IMG/VR virus record: IMGVR_UViG_3300017991_000256
Location: 1 to 34,410 of that record
Strand: one strand, 5' to 3'
From: a virus
Length of the DNA: 34,410 nt
The notes under the pieces are model-generated. The model searched no databases. It was not told where the DNA came from and worked only from the letters and a program-made list of their open reading frames with translations. Made by a program: the position numbers and the translations under genes. Shown piece after piece: positions 3,888 through 32,858 of this stretch; positions within the stretch are counted from its first letter, which is position 1, and each line of letters starts with the position of its first letter.

Positions 3888-4496
3888 TTACACCCTCCGT
3901 CGTTCGGGGTAGTCAAAGGCACGAATGTCGCTCACGTACCGCTGGGTCACCGCCGCCCACAGCTCCCGGGAGAACACGTTCTGGAAAGGTGGGTGCTCTA
4001 TCCGGTTGTCGTGAGGTAGGTCGGGCAGGCCGAACATGAGTTGCAGCCGCCGCCAGTCGTCGCCCAGCCGCTCAAAGCGACCCACAAAATCCGCCGCCAG
4101 CACACCGCCCGGCAGCACGAAATTCGTCTGGGGCTTCAGGTGCTCGTCCAGCCCCTTGTCCCAGGTAGTTTCCACCACCGCCCAGGCAAACTCCTCAAAG
4201 GAGCCAAACCGCCGCCGCGTCCAGAAGTGACGGTGCTCCGGGTCGTGGACCCAGTGCTTCAACCACACTCCATAGAGCCTTGCCCGGGGGTCCCGCACAA
4301 AGGCGACCCGGTAGTAGCCCCGCGTCGCTTCCGTCTTGTAGATGGGCACCGCCGCCCGCCATGTCCGTGTCCAGGGGTTGCACGGTGGCAGGCCGACCCA
4401 GGCCGCAAGGGCGTTCTGAATGGAGGTACTGGCCACCCGCGTGATACGGAGGTAGGCGAAGCACTTCTCAGGGAATAGCAGTGTCACAGCACTCAT
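3888..4496 (-). CDS. Sulfotransferase-like protein (Sulfotransfer_2 type)
   Basis: The product is 202 residues. The start ATG at 4496 overlaps the polymerase TGA (TGATG). Near the N-terminus, FAYLRITRVASTSIQNAL matches the 5'-phosphosulfate loop of carbohydrate sulfotransferases (usual form FxHIPKTAGTSI). VAFVRDPRARL at 65-75 matches the 3'-phosphate-binding motif, with R68 and R71 in the expected positions. Such enzymes use PAPS to sulfate sugars. Oddly, the usual loop lysine is replaced by arginine (R20), so activity should not be assumed. It sits between DNA polymerase and two small unknown genes, an unusual place for a carbohydrate enzyme. The fold assignment is fairly strong; the substrate is unknown. 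Confidence 0.75.
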   Translation of the reverse strand: MSAVTLLFPEKCFAYLRITRVASTSIQNALAAWVGLPPCNPWTRTWRAAVPIYKTEATRGYYRVAFVRDPRARLYGVWLKHWVHDPEHRHFWTRRRFGSFEEFAWAVVETTWDKGLDEHLKPQTNFVLPGGVLAADFVGRFERLGDDWRRLQLMFGLPDLPHDNRIEHPPFQNVFSRELWAAVTQRYVSDIRAFDYPERRRV

Positions 4497-8784: not shown

Positions 8785-9501
8785 TCATAGCCCATACCGC
8801 TCGATCAGCCCCGCCCACCGCGTACCGTGTAGGGCGTTCACGGCCTCCGCGTAGTTCGTCACCACCTCGCTGAGCGGCTTCTGGCCTTGCAGGAGTGCTC
8901 GGCTTTGCACCGGCACCGGCCGCACGCCCAGGAACTCAAAGATGCGGGCCGTTTGCCCAGGCAGGTCCGCCACTGCGTCCTCGTACTTCAAGACCAACTG
9001 AGGGAAGGCTTGCCACTCCTTGCGGTCTTGCTGCCATAGCTGCCACGTCCGCCCTATGGCCCGAAGCATGAAGGCCGGGTCCACCGTAACGGTCACACTC
9101 TGGTCCGGGTCATCCTTGCCCCTCTGATGCTGGAAATAGCACCACTGCTTCCGTCGCTTGGCCACCTCCTTGCTCACGAACTGGGCGAACACGTTTTCGC
9201 GGTAGAGCATGAGCACCTTCAGGTTCGGGTGGGCTGTTCGCATGAGGCCCCGCATCCCCTTGAACTTGCCCACCCGGCCGCCATCCGACCGCTGTAGCAG
9301 AAGACCGTCCGCCTCGATGCCCAGCTCCTTGGCCTGGGCCGCCGTGTAGTAGAGTTCCTGGAACCAGTTCGGTCCCACCTTGTCCTGGTCCCTGGGGCTG
9401 TAGAATTCACCCCGGCACCGGATGGCCGGATGGGCCTCCAGAGCCGTTTGCAGGTAGTGGGACCCGGTACGCTTGTCGCTACTCAGAAGGAAGGGTTGCA
9501 T
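8785..9501 (-). CDS. Sulfotransferase-like protein (Stf0 / LPS sulfotransferase type)
   Basis: The product has 238 residues. The start ATG overlaps the TGA of the DnaB-like gene (TGATG). The N-terminus, LLSSDKRTGSHYLQTALEAHP, fits the PAPS-binding loop of Stf0-type sulfotransferases (xxSTPRSGSTLLCDLL), with R11, G13 and S14 conserved. LKVLMLYRENVFAQFVS near residue 95 fits the 3'-phosphate motif, and LVLKYEDAVADLPGQTARI resembles the later YEDLV...P segment of the family. It is the second of three sulfotransferase-like genes. Its sequence differs clearly from the one at 3888-4496, so it is not a recent duplicate. The substrate is unknown. Confidence 0.78.
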   Translation of the reverse strand: MQPFLLSSDKRTGSHYLQTALEAHPAIRCRGEFYSPRDQDKVGPNWFQELYYTAAQAKELGIEADGLLLQRSDGGRVGKFKGMRGLMRTAHPNLKVLMLYRENVFAQFVSKEVAKRRKQWCYFQHQRGKDDPDQSVTVTVDPAFMLRAIGRTWQLWQQDRKEWQAFPQLVLKYEDAVADLPGQTARIFEFLGVRPVPVQSRALLQGQKPLSEVVTNYAEAVNALHGTRWAGLIERYGL

Positions 9502-12258: not shown

Positions 12259-12288
12259 ATTTTACCTTTCCCAAGGGGGGTTCGGCAA
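12259..12288 (-). promoter_or_regulatory. Sigma-70-like promoter for the replication operon, probably leaderless
   Basis: On the minus strand TTGCCG (12288-12283), an 18-bp spacer and TAAAAT (12264-12259) are followed by seven bases and then the ATG at 12251. Transcription would start at or next to the start codon. The extended -10 context GGTAAAATAGG is identical to the promoter at 8749-8777. It overlaps the stop of the hub-like gene, separating the late tail genes from the replication genes. Confidence 0.65.
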
Positions 12289-12289
12289 C

Positions 12290-14242
12290 CTATGCCGTCT
12301 TGGTCTTCACAAGGCTGGGGTTCCGCACGTACACCACGCCGTCCGTACACTCAATCCAGAACTTGTATGTCCCCTCGTCCACCGCCGCCACGTTGAACGC
12401 GACATTGACGGTGCCCGTGGCAAGAGCCACAGACGCCACCGTGGCACCGCCTGGGTCCTTGATTAGTAGGTTGCCGGAACCGTCGTCGGCGTCCGCCGTG
12501 ATGCTTGCGGTGAACGCTCCCTCGCTGAGAAACAGCTCTTGCCAGAAATTGCAGCCGTCGCGGACGGTGGCAATATGGTCCCCCACCCGCACGTCCCACC
12601 GGCTGTCCTTCTTCCAAACCGTGTCCTCCCCATCTTCGCTGGCCCCGTTGATCGTGTCACACGCGAGCAGGTTGCCGCTTTCGTAGGCCGTGTTCCCTAT
12701 GTCCTCAAAGCTCTCCACGGTCAAGTCCATGCTCACACTAGGAGCCGGGTCGTAGCCCAGCTTGATGGCTGCCAGCAACCCCGTCACCTCTTGGCCGGTT
12801 TGGGGCACCGTGAACGTGACCACTTGGCCCACGTTCAAGGAGGGCAGGTAGCTCACCTTCGTGGCCCACTGCTTCGCCTGCATCTTGCTTTCCTGATGCC
12901 GCCGCACGCCGACCTCAAAGGCCGTGTCCTTGTCGCTGATGTAGGGGTTGTCAATGTCCTCGTCCGTTTCCCCGAACTTGGCCGCTATGTCGGGGTCGCG
13001 GACTACGGTTTCCAGTTGCACCGGCTCCCGCTCGTCTTGGTTCTTGTCCGGGCTTTGCTTGCCCCCACCACCGGCACCACCGCCGCCCGGGTTGCCTCCG
13101 AGCTTGCGTTGCTTGGCCTTTTCCTTCTTTTCTTGCTTGCCCTTTTCCTTGCTGCCCCGGCTCCACTTGGAGATGGCCGCCTGGACGTTGATTTCCCCTT
13201 TGGTCCGCCCTTGGCGTTCCACCTTCACGCTCGCAGTTCCGGCCGCGATATAGCCGCCGCCCGGGCCTGCAATCTCCTCAGTCACAAGGCCGTCCGCCTC
13301 CACCGGGTTGCCCGTTGTCGGGTCTACGAGCGACCCCTGCCCCCAGCTATAATGAGCGTCGCTATTGTCAGCGTCCGCCCCATTGCCATCCAGGCGGTTC
13401 TTCGTCAGCACGCCCGGGACGCCCTTGCCGACCACAATACACTTCTCCACGCCGCCCTTGCCGGGCCTGCCACCCCCGCCCTTCGGTGTCTTGCTGTCCG
13501 GCCGCTTGCTGTCGCCCAGGTCCTTTTCACCACAGTCGTGGTCAGGGCTTTGCATCTTGCCACGGACGCGGACGTTGCTGGGCATACCGCCGCCACCGCT
13601 GCCACCCTCTACCGCACGGCTCCGCCGGGCATCTTGCACCGCCTGGGGTGGGATCACCAAGTCCACCGCCGAATTGTGGTCCTTCCAGGCGGTGGCCACT
13701 AGCTTGCCCGTCCGGTCCACGTAGAGGTCACTCTTGGCCGCCGTGGCAACCCGCCCCATCTCCTCCAGCAGATTGTCCCCGCTGACGGAGTTGTAGCTCT
13801 GGGGGTTTGTGTTCATGCCGCTGAAATCGTACAGCCCGGAAGGCAGGCCGCCGCTTTCCCCCGCGAGGCCCTCCATCACGCCCTGCCCGCCGCCGCTTTG
13901 CTTCTCCGTGTTCACGGGCTTGTCGCCCAGGCGTGACGCGAAGCTGGATACCTTGCAGGCCCGGGCCTGCTCGCTGATAGCCGTGTTCGTGTCAATGCCC
14001 GTGACCAGCCCGTACACCCACCGCACAGTCCCTTCCCACAGCCCGCCGTCAGGCGTGCCGTCCAGCACCGTGGCAACCGCCTCAAGGTAGATTTGGACGG
14101 GCTTGCCCAGGTAGGCGTCCTCCGTCCACTTGTCTTCCTCGTCCGTGAGGTTGAACGACGCGGAGTAGCTGCCCCGCATATTCACGTCCACGGACCAGTT
14201 CAGAAGGTCGTTGTCAAAGGTTGCGTCAGGCGGGCAGCTCAT
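12290..14242 (-). CDS. Tail hub/baseplate-like protein with low-complexity linkers
   Basis: The product has 650 residues. The N-terminus (LLNWSVDVNMRGSYSASFNL, then a beta-rich part with GLVTGIDT) fits phage tail hub proteins of the gp27 type; SGDNLLEEMGRVATAAKSDLYVDRTGKLVA also suits such a domain. Residues about 200-430 hold glycine/lysine-rich linkers (GGGGRPGKGG, GGNPGGGGAGGGGKQ) around a short beta segment. A conserved-looking segment near 450-520 contains LNVGQVVTFTVPQTGQEVTGLL. The last 120 residues look like a beta sandwich (SITADADDGSGNLLIKDPGG). GGGAGG lies 7 nt before the ATG, and the start overlaps the methyltransferase gene by 17 nt. It is probably a virion tip component; the specific role is uncertain. 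Confidence 0.55.
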   Translation of the reverse strand: MSCPPDATFDNDLLNWSVDVNMRGSYSASFNLTDEEDKWTEDAYLGKPVQIYLEAVATVLDGTPDGGLWEGTVRWVYGLVTGIDTNTAISEQARACKVSSFASRLGDKPVNTEKQSGGGQGVMEGLAGESGGLPSGLYDFSGMNTNPQSYNSVSGDNLLEEMGRVATAAKSDLYVDRTGKLVATAWKDHNSAVDLVIPPQAVQDARRSRAVEGGSGGGGMPSNVRVRGKMQSPDHDCGEKDLGDSKRPDSKTPKGGGGRPGKGGVEKCIVVGKGVPGVLTKNRLDGNGADADNSDAHYSWGQGSLVDPTTGNPVEADGLVTEEIAGPGGGYIAAGTASVKVERQGRTKGEINVQAAISKWSRGSKEKGKQEKKEKAKQRKLGGNPGGGGAGGGGKQSPDKNQDEREPVQLETVVRDPDIAAKFGETDEDIDNPYISDKDTAFEVGVRRHQESKMQAKQWATKVSYLPSLNVGQVVTFTVPQTGQEVTGLLAAIKLGYDPAPSVSMDLTVESFEDIGNTAYESGNLLACDTINGASEDGEDTVWKKDSRWDVRVGDHIATVRDGCNFWQELFLSEGAFTASITADADDGSGNLLIKDPGGATVASVALATGTVNVAFNVAAVDEGTYKFWIECTDGVVYVRNPSLVKTKTA

Positions 14243-14774
14243 GCTTCACCTCCCCCGGCTTCCGTATGCCGAAACTCGCAAACTCGTCCCGCTGGGTCAA
14301 TAGGTCCAGGGACACGCCATGCTTCCGAACAAAGGCGTGAACCGCCGCCTTTACGCCAAACCGCCGGGGGTGGTAATCGTGACCCATCAGCCACCCGCCC
14401 GGCTTGATCCTGGGCCAGTATGCCTCAAAGTCGTTGTCCACCTTTGGCCGGTAGTGATCCGCGTCCACGTACACCACGTCGAAGAAATTGTTCGGGAAGC
14501 ACGAGGCCGCCGCCGTGCTATCCGCCCGCAAGACGTACACCGTGGGGTCGTTGATAAAGTGTCGCACCACCGCACGGAACCGGCCGTTCTGGTCCCCCGA
14601 CGACCCGTACCACTTGCCCACTGGCAGCCACGCATCTATCAGGAACAACCGGGACGGTTCCAGTATGGATCGCAGGTGGCGTGAATAGGCCCCCTGCAAG
14701 ACACCCACTTCAGCCACGACCCCACCTTGGGGAAGGAGGCTGAGCATCGTTTTCCGGTTTGCTGGTCGTAGCAT
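14226..14774 (-). CDS. Class I SAM-dependent methyltransferase (Methyltransf_24-like)
   Basis: The product has 182 residues. VVAEVGVLQGAYSRHL (19-34) is the SAM-binding loop, ending motif I. LFLIDAW holds the ribose-binding acid D47. FDVVYVDADHYRPKVDND (98-115) and IKPGGWLMGHDY (123-134) are the hallmark of the Methyltransf_24 and macrocin-O-methyltransferase-like group, where the D-A-D-H and G-H-D residues bind a metal. Members often O-methylate sugars or glycopeptides. It closes the sugar cassette, and its 3' end overlaps the hub gene. The acceptor is unknown, but context suggests a glycan. Confidence 0.82.
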   Translation of the reverse strand: MLRPANRKTMLSLLPQGGVVAEVGVLQGAYSRHLRSILEPSRLFLIDAWLPVGKWYGSSGDQNGRFRAVVRHFINDPTVYVLRADSTAAASCFPNNFFDVVYVDADHYRPKVDNDFEAYWPRIKPGGWLMGHDYHPRRFGVKAAVHAFVRKHGVSLDLLTQRDEFASFGIRKPGEVKHELPA

Positions 14775-14783
14775 GGCTCCGTC

Positions 14784-15725
14784 CTACGTTAGCACCTGGG
14801 CAGCCGCAACGGCTTCCACCCCACTCCGCTTGAACTGGCGTGCCCGGAGGTCAATGGCCTCCTCCATAGCGTCCACCGTCTTTTCCGTTGCCCCTTTGCC
14901 CAGGCTTTCACCGTGAACCAGCACCGCCCACCGCTCACGGTCCCGCCGCTTTGCGTCGTTTGCCCGCACCTGCAAGAGCAGGCTGTCCAGCTCTTGCTCG
15001 CTGTAGAGGTAGGCGAACTCCCGGTGGGCCATGTCAAAGAACCGGGCCGCTTTGTGCTGGGGCCACGGTAGCCCGTGGTGAATGTAGAGTTGCTTCCTTG
15101 GGTCTGCCAAGGCACACGCAAGGACGGAACTGTAATCGCACAGCACCGTCCCCGCCTCCGCCAGTGCTTGCCAGAAGGGCCGCCCGTGGTCAATCCGCAC
15201 AAGGTTGTCAGGCAGGGCACCCCGCACACTCCGCTTCCAATCCTCAAACAGGTGGAAGCAGAAATACACCCGCTCGAAGCGGTGGCAGAGCGTGAGCAGC
15301 GTCTTGCCCACGTCTGTCCGTGGCCCTCTCCAGCCGCCCTTGTGGGCAAAGTAGGCGAACGCGACCTCTGGATTATTGAACTTGAAGTCCAGTTGCTCCA
15401 CAAAGAAGAACCCGGTGACCCAGGACCGCCGCTTGGCCGCAATACCCCAGTCCCGGGTCAGAAGCTCTATGGTGGGACTGGGCCACACTTCATAGTCGTG
15501 GGCCTTGACGCTGAGCCGGTTGGAATAGAGGGGGGCGTGGTCCACAATGAAGTTCCCCGGGGCCTCCCAGGTGCGATAGGGCAGCACCACTAGGTCCACC
15601 GCCGCCGGGTCCAGGCTCCCATTCTTGAACATCCGCACGGAAAACCGTTGCCGCATGGCATCCACGAGCGGGCCGTAGAAGGCCGCCGCGTGGGGGAAGT
15701 CGTTGACGAATACTACCTCTTTCAC
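14784..15725 (-). CDS. TagF/TagB-like polyol-phosphate (CDP-glycerol type) transferase
   Basis: The product has 313 residues from the GTG at 15725, which has GGGAGG 6 nt upstream and overlaps the previous stop as GTGA. The C-terminal half contains TVLCDYSSVLACALADPRKQ (D197-V201), close to the TDYSSV box of the CDP-glycerol glycerophosphotransferase family, and then YIHHGLPWPQ. The N-terminal half has alternating strands and helices (VVFVNDFPHAAAFYGPLV, DLVVLPYRTW) as in a GT-B fold. TagF-type proteins transfer glycerol or ribitol phosphate to build teichoic acids; here it more likely decorates the same glycan as its neighbours. The call rests mainly on the DYSSV box. Confidence 0.55.
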   Translation of the reverse strand: MKEVVFVNDFPHAAAFYGPLVDAMRQRFSVRMFKNGSLDPAAVDLVVLPYRTWEAPGNFIVDHAPLYSNRLSVKAHDYEVWPSPTIELLTRDWGIAAKRRSWVTGFFFVEQLDFKFNNPEVAFAYFAHKGGWRGPRTDVGKTLLTLCHRFERVYFCFHLFEDWKRSVRGALPDNLVRIDHGRPFWQALAEAGTVLCDYSSVLACALADPRKQLYIHHGLPWPQHKAARFFDMAHREFAYLYSEQELDSLLLQVRANDAKRRDRERWAVLVHGESLGKGATEKTVDAMEEAIDLRARQFKRSGVEAVAAAQVLT

Positions 15726-17530
15726 TTTGCACCTCCCAGCAACCCCTCGGGCACCTTGCTCGTGTCCGTGCCGTGCATCCAAACCTCGTGAGTGAAGTTG
15801 CTGTCCAACTCCTTGCCAGCCCGCTCCAAGTCGTGCCGCCGGGTCATGCCGCCAGCTTGCAGGAACTCCTCACACTCGGCCACGTGGTCGAAATTGTACC
15901 CCCACCGGGCAGCCCCGCCAAACCGCAAGACCGCCCACTGATACCGGCACACCTGCTCAAGCACCCCCTGGATGTCTGCCATGCCGCCGGTCGCGTTCAC
16001 AAGGCACCAGATGTCCGTCAGAACCACCACGTAGGCCGGGGGCCACTCCGCCATCGTGAAATCCGTGTCTGCCAGAAATTCACGTGCCCGGCCCGTGCAA
16101 CGCTCCAGGGCCTTGTGGTCAGGCTCCAGTCCCGCGATGGCCACGTTGCGTTCCAGGGCCAGTTCCAGGAAGGCCCCGTCAAAGGAACCCACCTCCAGCA
16201 CCGGCCGCCGTCCCGCAATCTGGCCCACCACCTCCGCACACGCCCGCAACTGAGCAAGGTTCTCACTCTTGTAGCCCCAGCCCCGCCGGTACGTGTACCA
16301 CAAGTCCTCCTTGTCGTTGCCCGCCAGCTCGCGTATCCAGGCGTCCCACTGGTCCACCACCACCGGGGCCGCAAACCGTTCCTCCGCCCGTTGCCGGTCC
16401 TTGTGTAGCAGTTCCGCAACCGCCTCGGGGTTGCCCTCGATCCAGGCCGCCCGCTGGGCCATGTCCTCCACGCTGGGCATCTGGAACATTCCGTTCTGTC
16501 GGGTGCTCAGGAATGCCGGGTCTACGAGCCACCGGCTGTCCTCGCCAAGCACCTCGGGCAGGCACGTGGTCCGGGGCACCACTTGGGGGCAGCCCGTGGC
16601 CATACACTCCAGGGTCGGTATCCCAAACCCTTCGCCCTGGGAGGTACTGATCCGCACGTCCGCCAGCCCAAACAGCTCCCGGAGTTCGTTCCGTTCCACC
16701 CCCCGGTCCCAGTCGAAATTCGTGTAGCACACCTGCCCAGGCTTCAGCCCGTAGTAGCGTTCCATCTTTGGCAGGTTGTAGGCCATGTCCCCCCGTTTCT
16801 TGTCCTCCTCCGTCGCGTGCTTGCCCTTGCGGGTGTGGGCGATCAGTTGCACCTCGCGGTCAGGCAGTAGCTCCGCCACCCGCCGCACCATGTCAAACGT
16901 CGCGTCCCAGAGCTTGTGATAGGTGTTCCGGTCCACGTTAATCAGCACAAAGGCGTCCGGGTCCAGGTAGCACCGCAACCGCTTGGACCACTTGCGTCGC
17001 AGCTCCAGCCGCCGGGCCTGGGCAGTGCTTGGCTCAGGATCGTAGAACCCAAACTCGTCCAGCTCTACCCCGTGGGGTATCACGATGTCGCTGGGGCACA
17101 CGTCCCGCCACAGCCGCCGGGCAAACTGGCTCAGGTTCACCACCCGGTTCGGCGGGACGCAGGAAAACATCTCCCGCCCCTTCTCTGGCAGGCTGGTCCC
17201 CTCCCAGGGCAGCCACAAGGTCATTTCCGCGTTTGCTGGCACCGTGGGCAGCCGCATCATCTGGGCGTTGACCGACATACACCAGAAAACCACCACCACG
17301 TCCGGCCGCAACTGTTCCGCCAGCCGCTCGATCAGTGCAAGGTCGCCCAGGTTTGCAAACCGCCACTCCCGGAGGTTTGGGGGCAGGGTGCCGTCAAACC
17401 TGGGGCCGGGGCCGCACGCCACGGTCACCTCATGGCCCTTTGCCGCCAAGCCCTCGCATACGAGCCGCGTCTGCCCGCCGAACCCGGTGGGCATGAACAG
17501 ACTTTCCGACAGCCACAGAACCTTCGCCAT
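15722..17530 (-). CDS. GT4-type glycosyltransferase fused to a methyltransferase-like domain
   Basis: The product has 602 residues from the ATG at 17530 (MAKVLWLSES), with GGAG 6 nt upstream. Residues 1-400 are a GT-B glycosyltransferase: GFGGQTRLVCEGL near the N-terminus, IPHGVELDEF (151-160), and SQGEGFGIPTLECMATGCP (297-315), the EGFGxxxxE nucleotide-sugar-binding motif of the GT4 family. Residues about 435-602 start with PVLEVGSFDGAFLELAL (443-459), which looks like SAM-binding motif I, and continue GLEPDH and VVVLTDIWCLV, a methyltransferase-like fold. Fusion of the two suggests that transfer and methylation act on one product. It overlaps the TagF-like gene by 4 nt. Confidence 0.85.
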   Translation of the reverse strand: MAKVLWLSESLFMPTGFGGQTRLVCEGLAAKGHEVTVACGPGPRFDGTLPPNLREWRFANLGDLALIERLAEQLRPDVVVVFWCMSVNAQMMRLPTVPANAEMTLWLPWEGTSLPEKGREMFSCVPPNRVVNLSQFARRLWRDVCPSDIVIPHGVELDEFGFYDPEPSTAQARRLELRRKWSKRLRCYLDPDAFVLINVDRNTYHKLWDATFDMVRRVAELLPDREVQLIAHTRKGKHATEEDKKRGDMAYNLPKMERYYGLKPGQVCYTNFDWDRGVERNELRELFGLADVRISTSQGEGFGIPTLECMATGCPQVVPRTTCLPEVLGEDSRWLVDPAFLSTRQNGMFQMPSVEDMAQRAAWIEGNPEAVAELLHKDRQRAEERFAAPVVVDQWDAWIRELAGNDKEDLWYTYRRGWGYKSENLAQLRACAEVVGQIAGRRPVLEVGSFDGAFLELALERNVAIAGLEPDHKALERCTGRAREFLADTDFTMAEWPPAYVVVLTDIWCLVNATGGMADIQGVLEQVCRYQWAVLRFGGAARWGYNFDHVAECEEFLQAGGMTRRHDLERAGKELDSNFTHEVWMHGTDTSKVPEGLLGGAK

Positions 17531-17531
17531 G

Positions 17532-17810
17532 TCATACTCCGTTCTTTTTCCACTGGCTGCCCTTGTCGTGCTTGCAGCCGTACTCTTTTGTCTCCTCGTA
17601 GCGTGCCAAGTCCACAAGGTTGCCATCCCCCGACAACCGGCAGCCGCACACGCTACACTTCATTCTTCCACCGCTGTCTTCCCCGATGTAGGGACAGGTG
17701 GAGCATATTTCGATCCGTGCCCGCATACGCTCCTCGGACACGGTTTCACCCGACACCACTGCCCGGAGCAGGCTCCAGGTCTTGCGAAAACTATCCCAGC
17801 TCACAAACAT
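17532..17810 (-). CDS. Small zinc-ribbon-like protein
   Basis: The product has 92 residues. The ATG at 17810 has GGAG 6 nt upstream, formed by the end of the previous gene. The middle reads RIEICSTCPYIGEDSGGRMK followed by CSVCGCRL, giving C36, C39, C52, C55, C57 and a later C79. This CxxC...CxxCxC pattern resembles small phage proteins of the DUF6171 kind that end in CPLGKW; here the end is CKHDKGSQWKK. Zinc binding is likely; function is unknown. It lies between two glycosyltransferase genes with 1-3 nt gaps, so it is probably made with them. Confidence 0.75.
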   Translation of the reverse strand: MFVSWDSFRKTWSLLRAVVSGETVSEERMRARIEICSTCPYIGEDSGGRMKCSVCGCRLSGDGNLVDLARYEETKEYGCKHDKGSQWKKNGV

Positions 17811-17813
17811 AGC

Positions 17814-19262
17814 TCACTCCGGTAGGGTGTTCACGTAGCGGAAGCCCAGCTTGTTCAACGGGTCCCCGCCAGTGCCGCCGTCTACGTTTTCCTCGGCTGG
17901 CTCGAACACCCGTAAGTCCCCATCCCCAGGGTACTCCTCCAAAGTCACCGCCCCAAACCCGGAACGCTCAAACCACCCGGAGGTCATGTGAATACCCTGT
18001 CTGCCAATATACCGCCCCCGGTTTGCGATGGGGCACAGCCGCTTCCAGCCATACCGCTCAAAGAGGTGCATCGTTGCCGCGTCTTGCCCGGTAGGGGGTG
18101 ACTTGAAGTAGCGTTCCCGGTCACGCCGGGCCTCCTTGTTCAAGGGGAACTTGCGTGGGCCACGGTCGAACACCCCATTCTTCATCTTGCGGGTGAACCA
18201 GTCCAAGATGCTCCGATGGGGCCGCTTGGCGTACTCACCTCCAAGGAATAGCTCCTCATAACGGTACACGTCCGTCGCTATGGTGTCCCAGGCCGCCCGC
18301 GTCATCAGGTAGCCCCACCAGTTCGTATAGGTGGCCCGCACCTTGTTCACAGCCCGCATCTTGTCGTCCACGCCCAGCACCGCAAAGGTCCAGCCCTGGA
18401 CGGCCCCCACGTTGTCGAAGTTCTTTTGCCCCCAGTCCAATAGGTTTTCGCAGAACTGGAAGTAGGTGGAACTCACCACCATGTCGTCCTCCAGCACAAA
18501 GACCCGCTCATAGCCCAGGTGGTCGAACAGTTGCCGCCGGGCGTCGATCAGATTTCGCCCACACCCAAAGTTCCGGGGCCGCCGCACGACGACGCAGTGG
18601 GGGAAGGCCCGCTTTGCGAGTTCCTCTTGCTGGTCAGTCGTGTGCTCCTTTTCCGTGTAGTCCAGGAACACGAACACCGGCACCCGTTGCACGTATTCAT
18701 TCGCCGCACACGTGTGCGTCACTTGCGTGAAGTAGCTGGGCCGATCACACCCCACAATCGCTATCGCCGTTTGGGACACCGGGAGCACCCCCGGGTCCGT
18801 GTCCTCCCGGATGTCGTAACGGTACGGCGTCCAGTTGATTTGAGCCGGGAGCGGTTCTTGGTAGCGGAACCCGCTGTCTTCTTCGTCAACGACGAGGTTC
18901 CGGGAAAATTGCCGCTGACTGGCGAGCGTTTGCCAGAGCGGCCTCCTGTCCGTGATGCAGGTGAGCCGGAGGTGGCCGTTGTCCCGCTGGTCCCGGCCGC
19001 ACCACTGGCCGGAACTGTAGTCCAAGGTCAGGGCCGCCAACATCGTGTCCCCAGGGCCAAAGAGCCGGAGCACGGGCTTGCGTAGCACCTCGTCCAATTC
19101 CACCCGCCACCGTTCCAGCTCGCCCCTTGCACCGACACCGAAAACCCCGCCCTCCTTGAACTCAAGAGTGCGGGGTTTGGACCTTGCCGGGGCGTAACGG
19201 AACAGGCGGGAATCCACCATCTCCTGGTCCACCGCCTGGACCCACTGTTCTTCGACGCTCAT
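17814..19262 (-). CDS. GT-A glycosyltransferase, GNT-I (GT13)-like, with N-terminal unknown domain
   Basis: The product has 482 residues. The catalytic part begins near 163 (SQTAIAIVGCDRPSYFTQV) and contains RNFGCGRNLIDARRQLFDHL and then RVFVLEDDMVVSSTYF, where E258-D259-D260 matches the EDD metal/UDP-sugar-binding motif of GlcNAc transferase I-like enzymes. Residues 1-140 are a separate beta-rich region (KEGGVFGVGARGELERWRV, LRLFGPGDTMLAALTLD) that I cannot name. It begins the sugar cassette, 19 nt after the cysteine-rich tail gene. The ribosome site is weak. A palindrome copy is inside, at codons H-T-C-A. The sugar donor and acceptor are unknown. Confidence 0.78.
   Translation of the reverse strand: MSVEEQWVQAVDQEMVDSRLFRYAPARSKPRTLEFKEGGVFGVGARGELERWRVELDEVLRKPVLRLFGPGDTMLAALTLDYSSGQWCGRDQRDNGHLRLTCITDRRPLWQTLASQRQFSRNLVVDEEDSGFRYQEPLPAQINWTPYRYDIREDTDPGVLPVSQTAIAIVGCDRPSYFTQVTHTCAANEYVQRVPVFVFLDYTEKEHTTDQQEELAKRAFPHCVVVRRPRNFGCGRNLIDARRQLFDHLGYERVFVLEDDMVVSSTYFQFCENLLDWGQKNFDNVGAVQGWTFAVLGVDDKMRAVNKVRATYTNWWGYLMTRAAWDTIATDVYRYEELFLGGEYAKRPHRSILDWFTRKMKNGVFDRGPRKFPLNKEARRDRERYFKSPPTGQDAATMHLFERYGWKRLCPIANRGRYIGRQGIHMTSGWFERSGFGAVTLEEYPGDGDLRVFEPAEENVDGGTGGDPLNKLGFRYVNTLPE
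18705..18718. repeat. CGCACACGTGTGCG palindrome, copy 3
   Basis: A perfect 14-bp palindrome in the GNT-I-like gene, encoding T-H-T-C-A in the same frame as copy 2. Confidence 0.95.
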
Positions 19263-19281: not shown

Positions 19282-20751
19282 CTAGATCAGCCCGAACATG
19301 GTCAGGCACTCGTAGCAGTCGATCCCGTTATTATACCCGTCGCAGTAGCAAATCTGGTAACACGTGCAATCAACCGTCGCACTCTGCTCCACCTGCCACG
19401 TGCCCGCCGGGTCGCACGCCCCCAAGAGCAGGCCCCGGCACGTCCTCTGAAAGTCCCACTGCTCGCCCTCCATGCTCAGGTAGATCGTGGAGCCGCTGGC
19501 GGATAGGGTGATAGAGCCCGGGTCCACCGTGAACAGCGTCAGGTCGCAGTAGGGGTAAACGTCTATCGCTATGTCGTCATCTTGGCACCGGAGGCCGGTG
19601 GTGCAAGGGTAGCCGATGCGGATGTATTCACACTTCCACGGAATGGGAAGGTGGACCTGGGCCTGCCATGCCGTGAGCAGGGGTTTGCCCGGGTCGATCT
19701 TGCACCTGTCGCGGGGTGGGTTCTTCATCCGCTTTTCGCGGATTTGGATGCAGGGGCCGACCGCGATGTACTTGGACTTCCCCAGGGGCGAAAGACCGTA
19801 GGTGCTTTCAGGGGCGTAGGTGCCCGTGGGCGACCGCCGCCACCGTGGGTCCGGGTAGCTTGTGATGACCGTTTGCTTGCCGGTACGGTCGTCCATCTTG
19901 AGCCAAGGCTTGCCGTCGTACCACGACCCCGGATACATATATCCGGTATAGTGGGTGTCGCAGTTCACGACCACTTGCTTGCTCACGCAACAGAGGAACA
20001 TCTGGCCGGTTTCGACGATCTTGAACTGGGCACAGCACACGAGCCAGAACTGGGAAGTGGTCTTGCACTTGGTCCCAATAATGGCCCAGGCGTCGTCGCT
20101 CTTTTCGACCCAGTTGCCCGCGTCCGCCGGGTTCTGCCGGATGGTCCATAGCGTTTGCACGTGCTCCAGAAACACGTTGCCGTCGTCGTCCTTGCAGTCG
20201 TAGCTCATGTTCAGGATGTAGAGTGCCCTGTCGCAACAATGGAGCACCTCATCCCCCTGCAATTCCATCTCCACGTTGTAGATGTCGCACAGCCCGGAGG
20301 AGCCGCCGCCCTTGGGGCTCTTGCGTTTGCTTTGCGGGCAGTCGTACTTGAACGAACGTGGCTCTGACTTGTGGGACGTGCCGCCCGTGCCGTTGCTGGC
20401 CATGACACGCCAGTGGGCTTCTTCCCCCATCCGTATGTCTTCACCCAGCTTCAGGCTCTTGGTCGTGCCCGCCACCTTTTCCGAGCGTAGCGTGGGGCCG
20501 TTGAAAGAACTGTCCTGGGACCACTGGACGATGTACTGGGTCGCCCCCGGCACCGCCTTCCACTTCAGGTCGATGCCAGTGCTATCACCCCGGGCCTTTG
20601 TTTCGTGGTCGTAGGGCTCCTCGCATAGATTGGCCCCATCCCGGGGCCATTCCAGCTCCGGGGTCGCCAGCCGTACATCGTCATGGAAGTCCACGGTGGG
20701 GAAGCCACCGTAGGTTCCAAGACCCTGATAGACACCGTATCCGCATCCCAT
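19282..20751 (-). CDS. Cysteine-rich tail protein with FN3-like segment
   Basis: The product has 489 residues and about 27 cysteines, including CC pairs and a CTCYQICYC cluster near the C-terminus; this is far more than any other gene here. Residues about 60-135 look like a fibronectin type III domain (IDLKWKAVPGATQYIVQWSQ, then AHWRVMASNGTG). The rest is beta-rich with no recognised domain. Its place right after the distal tail-like gene suggests a tail tip or receptor-facing protein. The start has AGGGTGA 6 nt upstream. Cysteines could hold zinc or form disulfides after release; the sequence cannot tell. There is no signal peptide. Confidence 0.6.
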   Translation of the reverse strand: MGCGYGVYQGLGTYGGFPTVDFHDDVRLATPELEWPRDGANLCEEPYDHETKARGDSTGIDLKWKAVPGATQYIVQWSQDSSFNGPTLRSEKVAGTTKSLKLGEDIRMGEEAHWRVMASNGTGGTSHKSEPRSFKYDCPQSKRKSPKGGGSSGLCDIYNVEMELQGDEVLHCCDRALYILNMSYDCKDDDGNVFLEHVQTLWTIRQNPADAGNWVEKSDDAWAIIGTKCKTTSQFWLVCCAQFKIVETGQMFLCCVSKQVVVNCDTHYTGYMYPGSWYDGKPWLKMDDRTGKQTVITSYPDPRWRRSPTGTYAPESTYGLSPLGKSKYIAVGPCIQIREKRMKNPPRDRCKIDPGKPLLTAWQAQVHLPIPWKCEYIRIGYPCTTGLRCQDDDIAIDVYPYCDLTLFTVDPGSITLSASGSTIYLSMEGEQWDFQRTCRGLLLGACDPAGTWQVEQSATVDCTCYQICYCDGYNNGIDCYECLTMFGLI

Positions 20752-30164: not shown

Positions 30165-30548
30165 TCACGGTACACCGGAACCGCCGAGTGGCGTGCCCGT
30201 GCGGTGGCCGTTGCTTCGCCATATACCTTCAAGGAGCTTCCGCTGCTCCTTCAGTTCATCCGTATTCGTGTCCACGCCCTTTTCGATCCCCTTCAACCGC
30301 TCCTCGATCCGTTTGACCATTTCCACCTGAGCGGCGGAATGGGCCTCTAGGGCGTGCTGGGACTGGACCGCCCGGAACTGGGCGTTGTAGGCCGCAAGCA
30401 CAGACCAGCCCACCCCCGCCAGGAATACGCTCATCAGAGCGATCATAAAGGTCAACTGATTTCGCGTGGCCCTGTGCTTGACTTCACACTCGTGGGCCGT
30501 CACCGGCCGTTCCCCTTCCGGGGTGCCTCTACTCGCTGTCGCTGCCAT
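30165..30548 (-). CDS. Membrane-anchored coiled-coil protein
   Basis: The product has 127 residues from the ATG at 30548, with AAGGAG 7 nt upstream. Residues 31-53 are one membrane span (QLTFMIALMSVFLAGVGWSV). Residues 58-115 are helical coiled coil (QVEMVKRIEERLKGIEKGVD, TNTDELKEQRKLLEGI). The layout recalls XhlA-type phage membrane proteins, but those usually have the span near the C-terminus and sit in lysis cassettes; this one has the order reversed. It overlaps the glycosyltransferase gene by 20 nt, so it might tether or regulate that enzyme. Confidence 0.65.
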   Translation of the reverse strand: MAATASRGTPEGERPVTAHECEVKHRATRNQLTFMIALMSVFLAGVGWSVLAAYNAQFRAVQSQHALEAHSAAQVEMVKRIEERLKGIEKGVDTNTDELKEQRKLLEGIWRSNGHRTGTPLGGSGVP

Positions 30549-31758
30549 CTTCCGCTCCTTCCTTGGCATTCAAGATTTCACGGACAGCCCGCCGCACTAC
30601 TTCCGGGGGCACCCGCTCGTTCAAGTTCAACAAAGGCGGGGTCCGGTCCCGCCTGACTTGGGTTCCACGGGCGTGGATTTGCACGATCAGATCAAACTCC
30701 CCCCACCGCGTTGCCGGGATACCGCCCAGGGTCACGTCCGCGATCTTCTGAAGCATCCTCACGGGTGGCGTGCCAGCACCATTCAAGCACAGCACCTTCC
30801 ACCGCTGGGTCACCGCCTGGGCTTCCAGCTTCACGGGGTTCTTTGGCACCACGCCCGTCACCCCCAAGGCTCGCAGCACGTCCGGCGAAGTGATTGCCTT
30901 CCGGGCGTGAGTGGCCACCGGACAGCCGGGTTGCAAGGCCCGCGTCGGGCTCATGTTCAGCCGCTCGTAGGCGTCCACCGCCTTCAGACTGGGATACAGC
31001 CCAATCACGTCATCCGGGCAGGTGTTCGTGAACACCACCGCACCGGGCACGCCCAGCAACCCGCACACGTGTGCGAACCCGCTGTCCGTGCCCGCAAACA
31101 GGTGAGCCCCCGCACACTCCTCCGCCTGCCACAGTAGGTCGTCCGATTGTTCGCTCAGCTTGAGCACGTAGGGCGGGGCGTGTATGCCCCACTCGTCCTT
31201 CGTGCCCAACATCTTGACAAGGTAGCCCCGGTCCACAAGTCCCTGGACCACAGCCCGCCACTTGCGGTCTGTCCACCGCCGGTTCGGATTGCTGGCCCCA
31301 GCATGGACCACCGCGACCTTGTGACCGTCTTGCAACTGGGGGGCATACGGGAACGTGAACTTGCCGGGGCTGACCGCCAGCCCCACCCGTTCGCTGACCA
31401 GCCCGTAGTAGGAACCCTCCCGCAAGGCGTGGGCGTGGTTCAACGTGAAACTGAACTCCAACAGAACGTCCCACTTGGTCCGCACCGCCGGGTCGTTCAG
31501 CCGTGTAGTGGGCAGCACCTCGTCCACACCCTCCATCTGCCGAAGCAGTGGGAGCACGTGGTCCATCGCCGCCGCCCCTACGTGGCAGGTGGGGTATTCC
31601 GCCTTCAGGGCCTTGGCCGTACCGCCAAGAGCAATCAGGCAGTCGCCCACCCCGGCCGTGAACCGGAGGGCGATCCGCTTCCCCGCCCAAACGTCCGGCA
31701 GCTCCCGGGCAGGCTCCCGGGGGCTTTCCAGGTGGGCAAACTCGTCGTCGTTCAGCAT
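30529..31758 (-). CDS. GT9-family (heptosyltransferase-like) glycosyltransferase
   Basis: The product has 409 residues from the ATG at 31758; a longer reading to 31983 runs into the capsid gene and is rejected. AGVGDCLIALG (35-45) is the GxGDxLxxxP-type N-terminal motif, VVHAGASNPNRRWTDRKW (150-167) matches the 'GAS..RRW....W' signature, and GTDSGFAHVCGLLGVP (223-238) matches the GxDTGxxHLA donor-site motif of ADP-heptose transferases. The last 120 residues are an extra domain not seen in typical GT9 enzymes. It lies between capsid and connector genes, and its start follows a terminator-like hairpin by 14 nt. A palindrome copy is inside, at A-H-V-C-G. Confidence 0.82.
   Translation of the reverse strand: MLNDDEFAHLESPREPARELPDVWAGKRIALRFTAGVGDCLIALGGTAKALKAEYPTCHVGAAAMDHVLPLLRQMEGVDEVLPTTRLNDPAVRTKWDVLLEFSFTLNHAHALREGSYYGLVSERVGLAVSPGKFTFPYAPQLQDGHKVAVVHAGASNPNRRWTDRKWRAVVQGLVDRGYLVKMLGTKDEWGIHAPPYVLKLSEQSDDLLWQAEECAGAHLFAGTDSGFAHVCGLLGVPGAVVFTNTCPDDVIGLYPSLKAVDAYERLNMSPTRALQPGCPVATHARKAITSPDVLRALGVTGVVPKNPVKLEAQAVTQRWKVLCLNGAGTPPVRMLQKIADVTLGGIPATRWGEFDLIVQIHARGTQVRRDRTPPLLNLNERVPPEVVRRAVREILNAKEGAEDGSDSE
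31062..31075. repeat. CGCACACGTGTGCG palindrome, copy 6
   Basis: A perfect 14-bp palindrome inside the GT9-like gene, encoding A-H-V-C-G in the same frame as copy 1. Confidence 0.95.
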
Positions 31759-31853: not shown

Positions 31854-32858
31854 CTACGAGTAGTCGGCCCCGGACATGGCCACGTTTTCGGCCAGGATCA
31901 CCAGATCGGGGTTCTCCACCTCGAAGTCCACGCGGAAGTGGATGGTGACTTCCCACACGTCCTGACGCGGCTGGCGGTCCCACTCGATGGTGATGTCCCG
32001 CTGGACAAAGTAGATCAAGTTCTGGAGCGGGGTCAGCCAGATTTCCGAGCCGTCCGTGCCCGCCGTGCCAAAGGACAAGTCCTCGGGCATGAGGGGAACT
32101 TCGAGCATGGGAATACCCCAGGGGCCGGGCACGGTGCCGTTCGCCAAGGCGGTGTCACCGCCGCCCGTTTCCCGGTCGCTCCAGTCCAGCATCCACTTGT
32201 CATAGGGACCGCTGGGCACGATCCACACGTAGTTCGGCCGGGCCGCACGGTAGCGGCTGGGGATTGCCCGCTTCATGTCGTAGTAGAGCTTCTTGGACGG
32301 GGCTTTCCCCCCGGCGTCGATTTGCTGGGCCGCCGGGACCTCCGCCTGCAAGATTTTGCTCCACCCGTCATTCACGCCGAGCAGGTTGTTTTCGGCCGAT
32401 TGGGTGTCCCCGGTGGCCAAGCTGTCGTCCCCCTCGATGGCCGCCATTTCCGTGTCAATGGCGATCCGCTTGGAGAACATATTCAGCAGGGTGTCCCGGA
32501 TGCCGTTGCCCTCCAGGTTGTCCTCGATGAAGTCGGTCTTCAGGTCAAACGCACTGCGGTACTTCTCGCAGTCGTAGGTGACCACCGCTTCGCTGGGAAC
32601 CCGGGTGCTGGCCTTGCTGGTCGTGTGGGCACCTTCCGTCACGATGGTGCCGAGGTCCAGCTTGTTGATCTCGCCCTTGTTGCGGTTCGTTCGCACCACG
32701 CGGACCCGCTGCATCAGCACGCTCTCGTTCACCACGAGGTCGATGAAGCGGTTCGCTTGCTGGCGGTTCAGAACCGAATTGGGCAGGCTGTTCGCGTCCA
32801 CCGCCGACTTGCTGGCAACCAACTGGTCGATGGGGAGCTTGATTTCTACGGTACTCAC
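31854..32858 (-). CDS. Major capsid protein, HK97 fold
   Basis: The product has 334 residues. It starts at GTG 32858 with AAGGAGG 8 nt upstream. RVVRTNRNKGEINKLDLGTI near the N-terminus is the N-arm to E-loop style beta region; DLKTDFIEDNLEGNGIRDTL and MFSKRIAIDTEMAAIEGDDS are the spine helix and P-domain helix; IPMLEVPLMPEDLSFGTAGT and LIYFVQRDITIEWDRQ near the end are the A-domain and final P-domain strands of HK97-like capsids. It follows protease-scaffold and precedes a terminator. The family is clear; the exact group is not. Confidence 0.9.
   Translation of the reverse strand: MSTVEIKLPIDQLVASKSAVDANSLPNSVLNRQQANRFIDLVVNESVLMQRVRVVRTNRNKGEINKLDLGTIVTEGAHTTSKASTRVPSEAVVTYDCEKYRSAFDLKTDFIEDNLEGNGIRDTLLNMFSKRIAIDTEMAAIEGDDSLATGDTQSAENNLLGVNDGWSKILQAEVPAAQQIDAGGKAPSKKLYYDMKRAIPSRYRAARPNYVWIVPSGPYDKWMLDWSDRETGGGDTALANGTVPGPWGIPMLEVPLMPEDLSFGTAGTDGSEIWLTPLQNLIYFVQRDITIEWDRQPRQDVWEVTIHFRVDFEVENPDLVILAENVAMSGADYS

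Follow-up and report, generated by a model that had tools for sequence, protein, structure and literature searches.

Why does a phage carry a run of glycan-building genes among its tail genes? The question is raised by the virus record IMGVR_UViG_3300017991_000256, a linear stretch of 34,410 bases (hereafter the window) whose genes lie on the minus strand, all in one direction, in the order maturation protease, major capsid protein, connector and tail genes, and replication genes. Between a cysteine-rich protein and a baseplate hub-like protein, positions 14226-19262 are filled by five consecutive minus-strand open reading frames (ORFs) spaced 3, 1, -4 and 9 nt apart, the fifth of which overlaps the hub gene by 17 nt. 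A sequence-only reading had placed five genes here in a row, in agreement with our ORF map, and had taken them for a single cassette inserted into the tail module and expressed late for the glycosylation of tail proteins. We report a different organization: three of the five genes are a conserved core, two are variable, and a sixth glycan enzyme that had been overlooked is encoded directly behind the major capsid gene. We lean towards the view that these genes constitute a cytoplasmic pathway which glycosylates the phage's own virion proteins, at the capsid and at the tail tip.

Conservation of the gene array in related phages

A search with the capsid protein gave 26 related loci and reached the first relatives of the array, to which an alignment of the first gene product later added more; 21 records were fetched and mapped. 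The related records all stem from metagenomes and could be incomplete, and near-copy records of one lineage were counted once. The first three genes encode a GNT-I-like (GT13-fold) GT-A glycosyltransferase of 482 aa (17814..19262, minus strand; hereafter GNT), a zinc-ribbon-like protein of 92 aa (17532..17810, minus) and a GT4 glycosyltransferase joined to a methyltransferase-like domain, 602 aa in total (15722..17530, minus). Ten lineages (the window, G004/G012, G006, G007, G009, G011, G017, G002/G003, G173 (L129) and G174/G175 (L134, L142)) carry all three in this order immediately upstream of the hub gene, at 32-64 percent identity. Among the lineages with capsid-found records spanning the capsid gene to the hub gene, counted together with the window, the full core was present in 8 of 10. 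When core and replication genes were compared for a shared tree, the lineages turned out to be nearly equidistant in pairwise identity. GNT, the zinc-ribbon protein and the GT4-methyltransferase are resident, syntenic core genes of a phage clade.

GNT occurs without the GT4-methyltransferase in three lineages (G016, L128 and L141, the latter two being short records), and in G016 and L128 it is located behind the hub gene; G020 lacks both enzymes. The slot also accommodates other genes. Two further proteins are encoded in G004, one of 126 aa that weakly matches HAD-like proteins, between the zinc-ribbon and GT4-methyltransferase genes, and one of 458 aa that contains a laminin-G/lectin-like domain, between the GT4-methyltransferase and the hub, while G016 has a 2-oxoglutarate-Fe(II) oxygenase and two methyltransferases between the cysteine-rich and zinc-ribbon proteins. 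An unusual expansion of the slot was seen in G007 (64073-71671, L090), where about 19 small ORFs, nearly all of them without relatives, extend from the cysteine-rich protein to GNT.

The fourth and fifth genes encode a 313-aa protein (14784..15725, minus) and a small methyltransferase of 182 aa (14226..14774, minus). They were found together only in the window and in one relative of 95-96 percent identity, L124, and are accessory, variable cargo. Comparison with relatives had been proposed to see whether the cassette moves as a unit; instead, the core is kept in the 10 lineages, and outside the window the two accessory genes were seen together in L124 only. The five genes could also be a mobile unit recently inserted between tail genes and unrelated to virion assembly, as the variable cargo and the changing content of the slot would suggest. 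However, genes one to three keep their order and position in the 10 lineages at the above identities, and the codon-position GC of the five genes is broadly like that of their neighbours, with the GC content at third positions (GC3) inside the neighbours' range. We regard recent insertion as highly improbable; for genes one to three it is largely refuted by conserved synteny.

The core proteins and their predicted activities

Matches of GNT to the Pfam families GT2 and GNT-I remained below threshold (PF03071, 14.8 bits versus a cut-off of 25.4). Its AlphaFold model (pLDDT 84) consists of a catalytic domain at residues ~160-460 and an extra N-terminal domain at ~1-130. The model matched rabbit GnT-I (1foa) with a VIA Z score of 20.2 and a root-mean-square deviation of 2.8 Å over 229 residues, and human POMGnT1 (5ggi) with a Z score of 20.1; the best match outside GnT-I, POMGnT1 and GnT-II, another kind of GT-A enzyme, reached only 14.8. 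Residues E258-D259-D260, R174, D201 and D394 are invariant in nine phage homologues, and D394 is the putative catalytic base as judged from motif order. The extra N-terminal domain of ~130 residues is present in six of the nine homologues and absent in three (L101:3170-4210, L078:231-1196 and L098:4182-5291). GNT shares the catalytic-domain fold and apparently the EDD motif with the eukaryotic GT13 enzymes GnT-I and POMGnT1 but is only 14-16 percent identical to them. Since the score for the curated family was missed, we call the protein GT13-like and not GT13, an assignment supported at the fold level by the model; UDP-GlcNAc, the donor of that family, is a candidate donor. The label GNT-I-like given previously is thus apt for the fold, with scores of about 20, but not for the Pfam family.

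No match to GNT was obtained in a single-sequence search of viral contigs or in the search of phage records; this set of 50,697 records contained no relative of GNT or of the GT9-like, zinc-ribbon, cysteine-rich or 313-aa proteins. Because unnamed proteins of similar fold came up when predicted viral proteins were searched by fold, we do not claim a first occurrence in phages.

Phage glycosyltransferases often glycosylate DNA bases, and such a function of the enzymes on modified bases of the phage DNA has some hints in its favour: GNT weakly matches phrog_842, beta-glucosyl-HMC-alpha-glucosyltransferase (E 0.01), and the small methyltransferase matches phrog_2675, "DNA methyltransferase". We nevertheless consider DNA glycosylation very unlikely because relatives of the TET/JBP and of the thymidylate-synthase/dCMP-hydroxymethylase families were each found in none of 15 related records, five of which are 94-105 kb long, while all may be fragments. 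Moreover, the GNT fold is closest to GnT-I/POMGnT1 and not to DNA glucosyltransferases. We assign a similarly low probability to the proteins being virion components themselves, e.g. enzymes at the tail tip that act on glycans of the host surface during entry. This idea draws on the location of the five genes between two tail genes and on the N-terminal domain of GNT in six of nine homologues. Yet three homologues do without this domain, and glycosyltransferases need nucleotide-sugar donors, which are not expected outside the cell.

The zinc-ribbon protein contains a CxxC...CxxC arrangement and a later cysteine that are invariant in eight homologues. It is 44-64 percent identical among relatives and weakly matches phrog_13558, a family of unknown function. 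In the third protein, the GT4 half matches Pfam Glycos_transf_1 above the cut-off (7e-8) and possesses the EX7E motif, and the GEGFGIPT motif is invariant; its closest solved relative is B736L of a chlorella virus (1.9e-14). Support for the methyltransferase half stayed below threshold, so that of the GT4-methyltransferase fusion named in the sequence-only reading the first part is well founded and the second is putative.

The starts of two genes were corrected on the basis of ribosome sites and homologue starts, as the longest ORF begins too early in both: the GT4-methyltransferase starts at 17530 and not at 17626, the fourth gene at the GTG at 15725 and not at 15782. A Shine-Dalgarno-like motif at normal spacing precedes most of the five genes. 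Overlaps and strong ribosome sites had been reported for the array; tight packing and mostly good sites were found, whereas in the case of GNT the AGGAGG lies ~15 nt upstream of the start.

A GT9-like glycosyltransferase gene behind the capsid gene

Directly behind the gene of the major capsid protein (31854..32858, minus; Pfam Phage_capsid, phrog_1623 1.7e-63) we noticed a gene for a GT9-like glycosyltransferase of the heptosyltransferase family (409 aa, 30529..31758, minus). The protein matches Pfam Glyco_transf_9 (3.8e-7, 30.1 bits, cut-off 22), and its profile matches the ADP-heptose lipopolysaccharide (LPS) heptosyltransferase II 1psw (9.5e-6). Homologues were present in 15 of 22 related records. 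The gene is kept in the same 10 core lineages plus others and is always behind the capsid gene where mapped, while G016, which is without the GT4-methyltransferase, is also without the GT9-like gene at this site. In two remote relatives (G010 and G020) its place is taken by a ~1,000-aa protein that combines GT9, GT4 and, once more, GT9-like domains. Such a fusion links head-side and tail-side enzymes and is the best sign that they belong to one pathway. GT9-GT4-GT9 fusions directly behind the major capsid gene are located at L118:8314-11337 (plus strand, 1007 aa) and L106:409-3372 (minus strand, 987 aa).

With the heptosyltransferases WaaC and WaaF the phage protein thus has the Pfam family and the profile match in common, but it is encoded behind a capsid gene and in two relatives fused to a GT4 domain. 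In distant isolates whose capsid proteins are ~27-30 percent identical (Rhodobacter RcTiptonus, Streptomyces Wakanda and Vibrio R21Y), the stretch inspected contains no annotated transferase, either immediately after the capsid gene or within the tail genes.

Virion proteins as candidate acceptors

Phage-encoded glycosyltransferases are one trait of a virion glycosylation system; here they lie in the virion gene block, and the five genes form a compact array together with tail genes. Since the enzymes are encoded next to the capsid and the hub, virion proteins are the favoured acceptors. The GT9-like gene makes it likely that the targets extend beyond the tail to the head, so that the previous proposal of tail protein glycosylation agrees with the position in the virion block and with its conservation but appears too narrow. 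None of the six proteins contains a membrane segment (no hydrophobic stretch above a Kyte-Doolittle value of 1.5), which means that this set does not encode a step involving a membrane-bound lipid carrier or a flippase. The traits of Gtr-type seroconversion, i.e. a membrane flippase and membrane transferases, were likewise not found among the six.

In the soluble pathway that we favour, nucleotide sugars of the host would supply the sugars, which would be added and capped by the GT9-like enzyme encoded at the capsid gene and by the GT4-methyltransferase and GT13-type enzymes encoded at the hub gene; methyl groups would decorate the ends. The zinc-ribbon protein might serve as a partner or adaptor, and the two accessory genes may alter the outer part of the glycan and be swapped between phages. 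The virion protein as acceptor, the order of the steps and all sugar identities are inferred from gene order and precedent.

Precedent comes from two kinds of viruses. For mycobacteriophages, glycans are reported on the C termini of capsid and tail-tube proteins (Freeman et al. 2023, cited in PMC12619734 and PMC11256854). The systems of Che8 and Rita likewise involve phage-encoded glycosyltransferases, with proposed capsid and tail glycans (Freeman et al. 2023, cited in PMC11256854 and PMC12619734). These systems differ from the window in that GNT, the GT9-like and the 313-aa protein have no sequence relative among the phage records searched, and the window is known from its genes alone. In the F1 phage Maravista, moreover, the transferases are encoded near the 3' end of the genome and not beside capsid and hub genes. 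The second precedent is chlorovirus capsid glycosylation (PBCV-1 A064R/A061L, NY-2A B736L), which is alike in its soluble virus-encoded transferases, a GT-methyltransferase fusion and a small methyltransferase. In A064R two GT domains are fused to a methyltransferase, and the enzyme assembles the terminal part of the capsid glycan, while the target of B736L itself is unsettled (PMC9614988). However, PBCV-1 and NY-2A are algal nucleocytoviruses, and the two GT domains of A064R belong to other families.

Several points weigh against glycosylation of virion proteins. No acceptor was identified, no obvious glycosylated tail of the mycobacteriophage kind was recognized in the capsid protein, and the hub protein, with 14 percent serine plus threonine, is not rich in these residues. 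GT9 enzymes of known function act on LPS, and gene neighbourhood alone is not proof of a target. Finally, the window is a 34 kb fragment from a phage of which no virion exists in culture.

The most serious competing explanation is that the enzymes remodel host surface glycans during infection, e.g. to mask the receptor and prevent superinfection or the loss of progeny on debris. The GT9-like protein belongs to an LPS heptosyltransferase family, the carbohydrate-binding-like domain of the hub suggests that the receptor may be a glycan, the window also encodes sulfotransferases, and enzymes of the same kinds occur together in a glycan cluster of a cellular, chlamydial genome. On the other hand, the six genes include no membrane protein, flippase or polyprenyl-phosphate transferase, and a host target needs no link to fixed positions beside capsid and hub genes across lineages. 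We judge host surface remodelling to be less likely than virion glycosylation but clearly more probable than the explanations dealt with above.

The chlamydial genome is that of Candidatus Sacchlamyda saccharinae (L144), a metagenome-assembled genome and the one genome match, with two GNT-like genes at 33-35 percent identity. Its cluster shares with the phage set the GNT-like enzymes, a GT4-methyltransferase fusion and small Methyltransf_24 genes, and holds in addition GT11, many methyltransferases and a UDP-glucose-dehydrogenase-like gene; in contrast to the phage set it is cellular, with no match to a phage structural gene in the surrounding 20.8 kb. Within Chlamydiota the GNT family is rare (5 of 151 genomes). 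Several enzymes of the cluster, at L144:6840-20555, start with a signal-peptide-like sequence. The GT13-type fold is familiar above all from the synthesis of N- and O-mannose glycans in eukaryotes, and its presence in phages and in a chlamydial genome would bear on the history of this family.

Virion glycosylation in phages has been proven in few systems. Assuming that virion proteins are indeed the acceptors, a conserved enzyme set at fixed head and tail gene sites makes the pathway look like a standing part of particle building and not like occasional cargo. From the split location, the fused enzyme of remote relatives and the exchange of accessory genes it can be predicted which proteins bear glycans and where in the glycan the variation lies. 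A broader, more tentative proposal, for which the odds appear to be rather against us, is that a whole clade of uncultivated siphophage-like viruses has a split glycan pathway, with GT9 at the capsid gene and the GT13-type and GT4-methyltransferase enzymes at the hub gene, that is a core part of morphogenesis, produces a common glycan on head and tail tip, and has its outer sugars varied by swapped accessory genes.

Accessory genes and tail gene neighbours

The 313-aa product of the fourth gene had been named TagF-like. It has no Pfam or PHROG match; an hhalign comparison with 41 CDP-glycerol transferases aligned 25 columns at a probability of 0.9 percent, and a search of two sequences with the 41-member profile (hmmsearch) returned E 0.11 for this protein. 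The name is not supported by these sequence comparisons and should be dropped until a structure has been made. The call of the fifth gene as a methyltransferase is borne out by Pfam Methyltransf_24 (6.2e-15).

The designation of the hub (650 aa, 12290..14242, minus) was likewise confirmed, as its model matches the baseplate of phage Milano, Mu gp44 and T4 gp27 with VIA Z scores of 22.7, 19.8 and 18.0, respectively; the middle of the model (residues 232-408) is of very low confidence. The C-terminal domain (residues 521-649, window positions 12290-12682) resembles a carbohydrate-binding module, with a Z score of 16.3 and 1.9 Å to a porphyran-binding module, and according to this model it may bind a host polysaccharide. 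The cysteine-rich protein (489 aa, 19282..20751, minus) lies between the tape-measure block and the array, and follows the tape measure in all relatives spanning that region. Its description as a cysteine-rich tail protein holds for the composition, with 27 cysteines; no family match was obtained, and it is presumed to be a tail protein from gene order alone.

Selection and expression timing

The ratio of nonsynonymous to synonymous substitution rates (dN/dS) against close relatives was 0.02 for the C-terminal part of the GT4-methyltransferase, 0.15 and 0.24 for the two accessory genes (the 313-aa gene and the small methyltransferase, respectively), 0.095 for the GT9-like gene and 0.14 for the hub. 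Such low values point to purifying selection, and the third to fifth genes, the GT9-like gene and the hub gene thus appear functional. For GNT and the zinc-ribbon gene only G004 (52-64 percent identical) could be compared, with synonymous sites near saturation.

Late expression of the array, as opposed to early sulfotransferases, was not substantiated. The replication genes begin 38 nt past the hub gene and run in the same direction, and no clear boundary between early and late genes emerged from a scan for promoters and terminators. The only promoter-like match in these 38 nt is a weak sigma-70-like one at 12259-12288, possibly the start of a second operon. Two sulfotransferase genes lie within the replication block of the window (3888-4496 and 8785-9501), and distant relatives of them are encoded far downstream of recA in some of the related phages.

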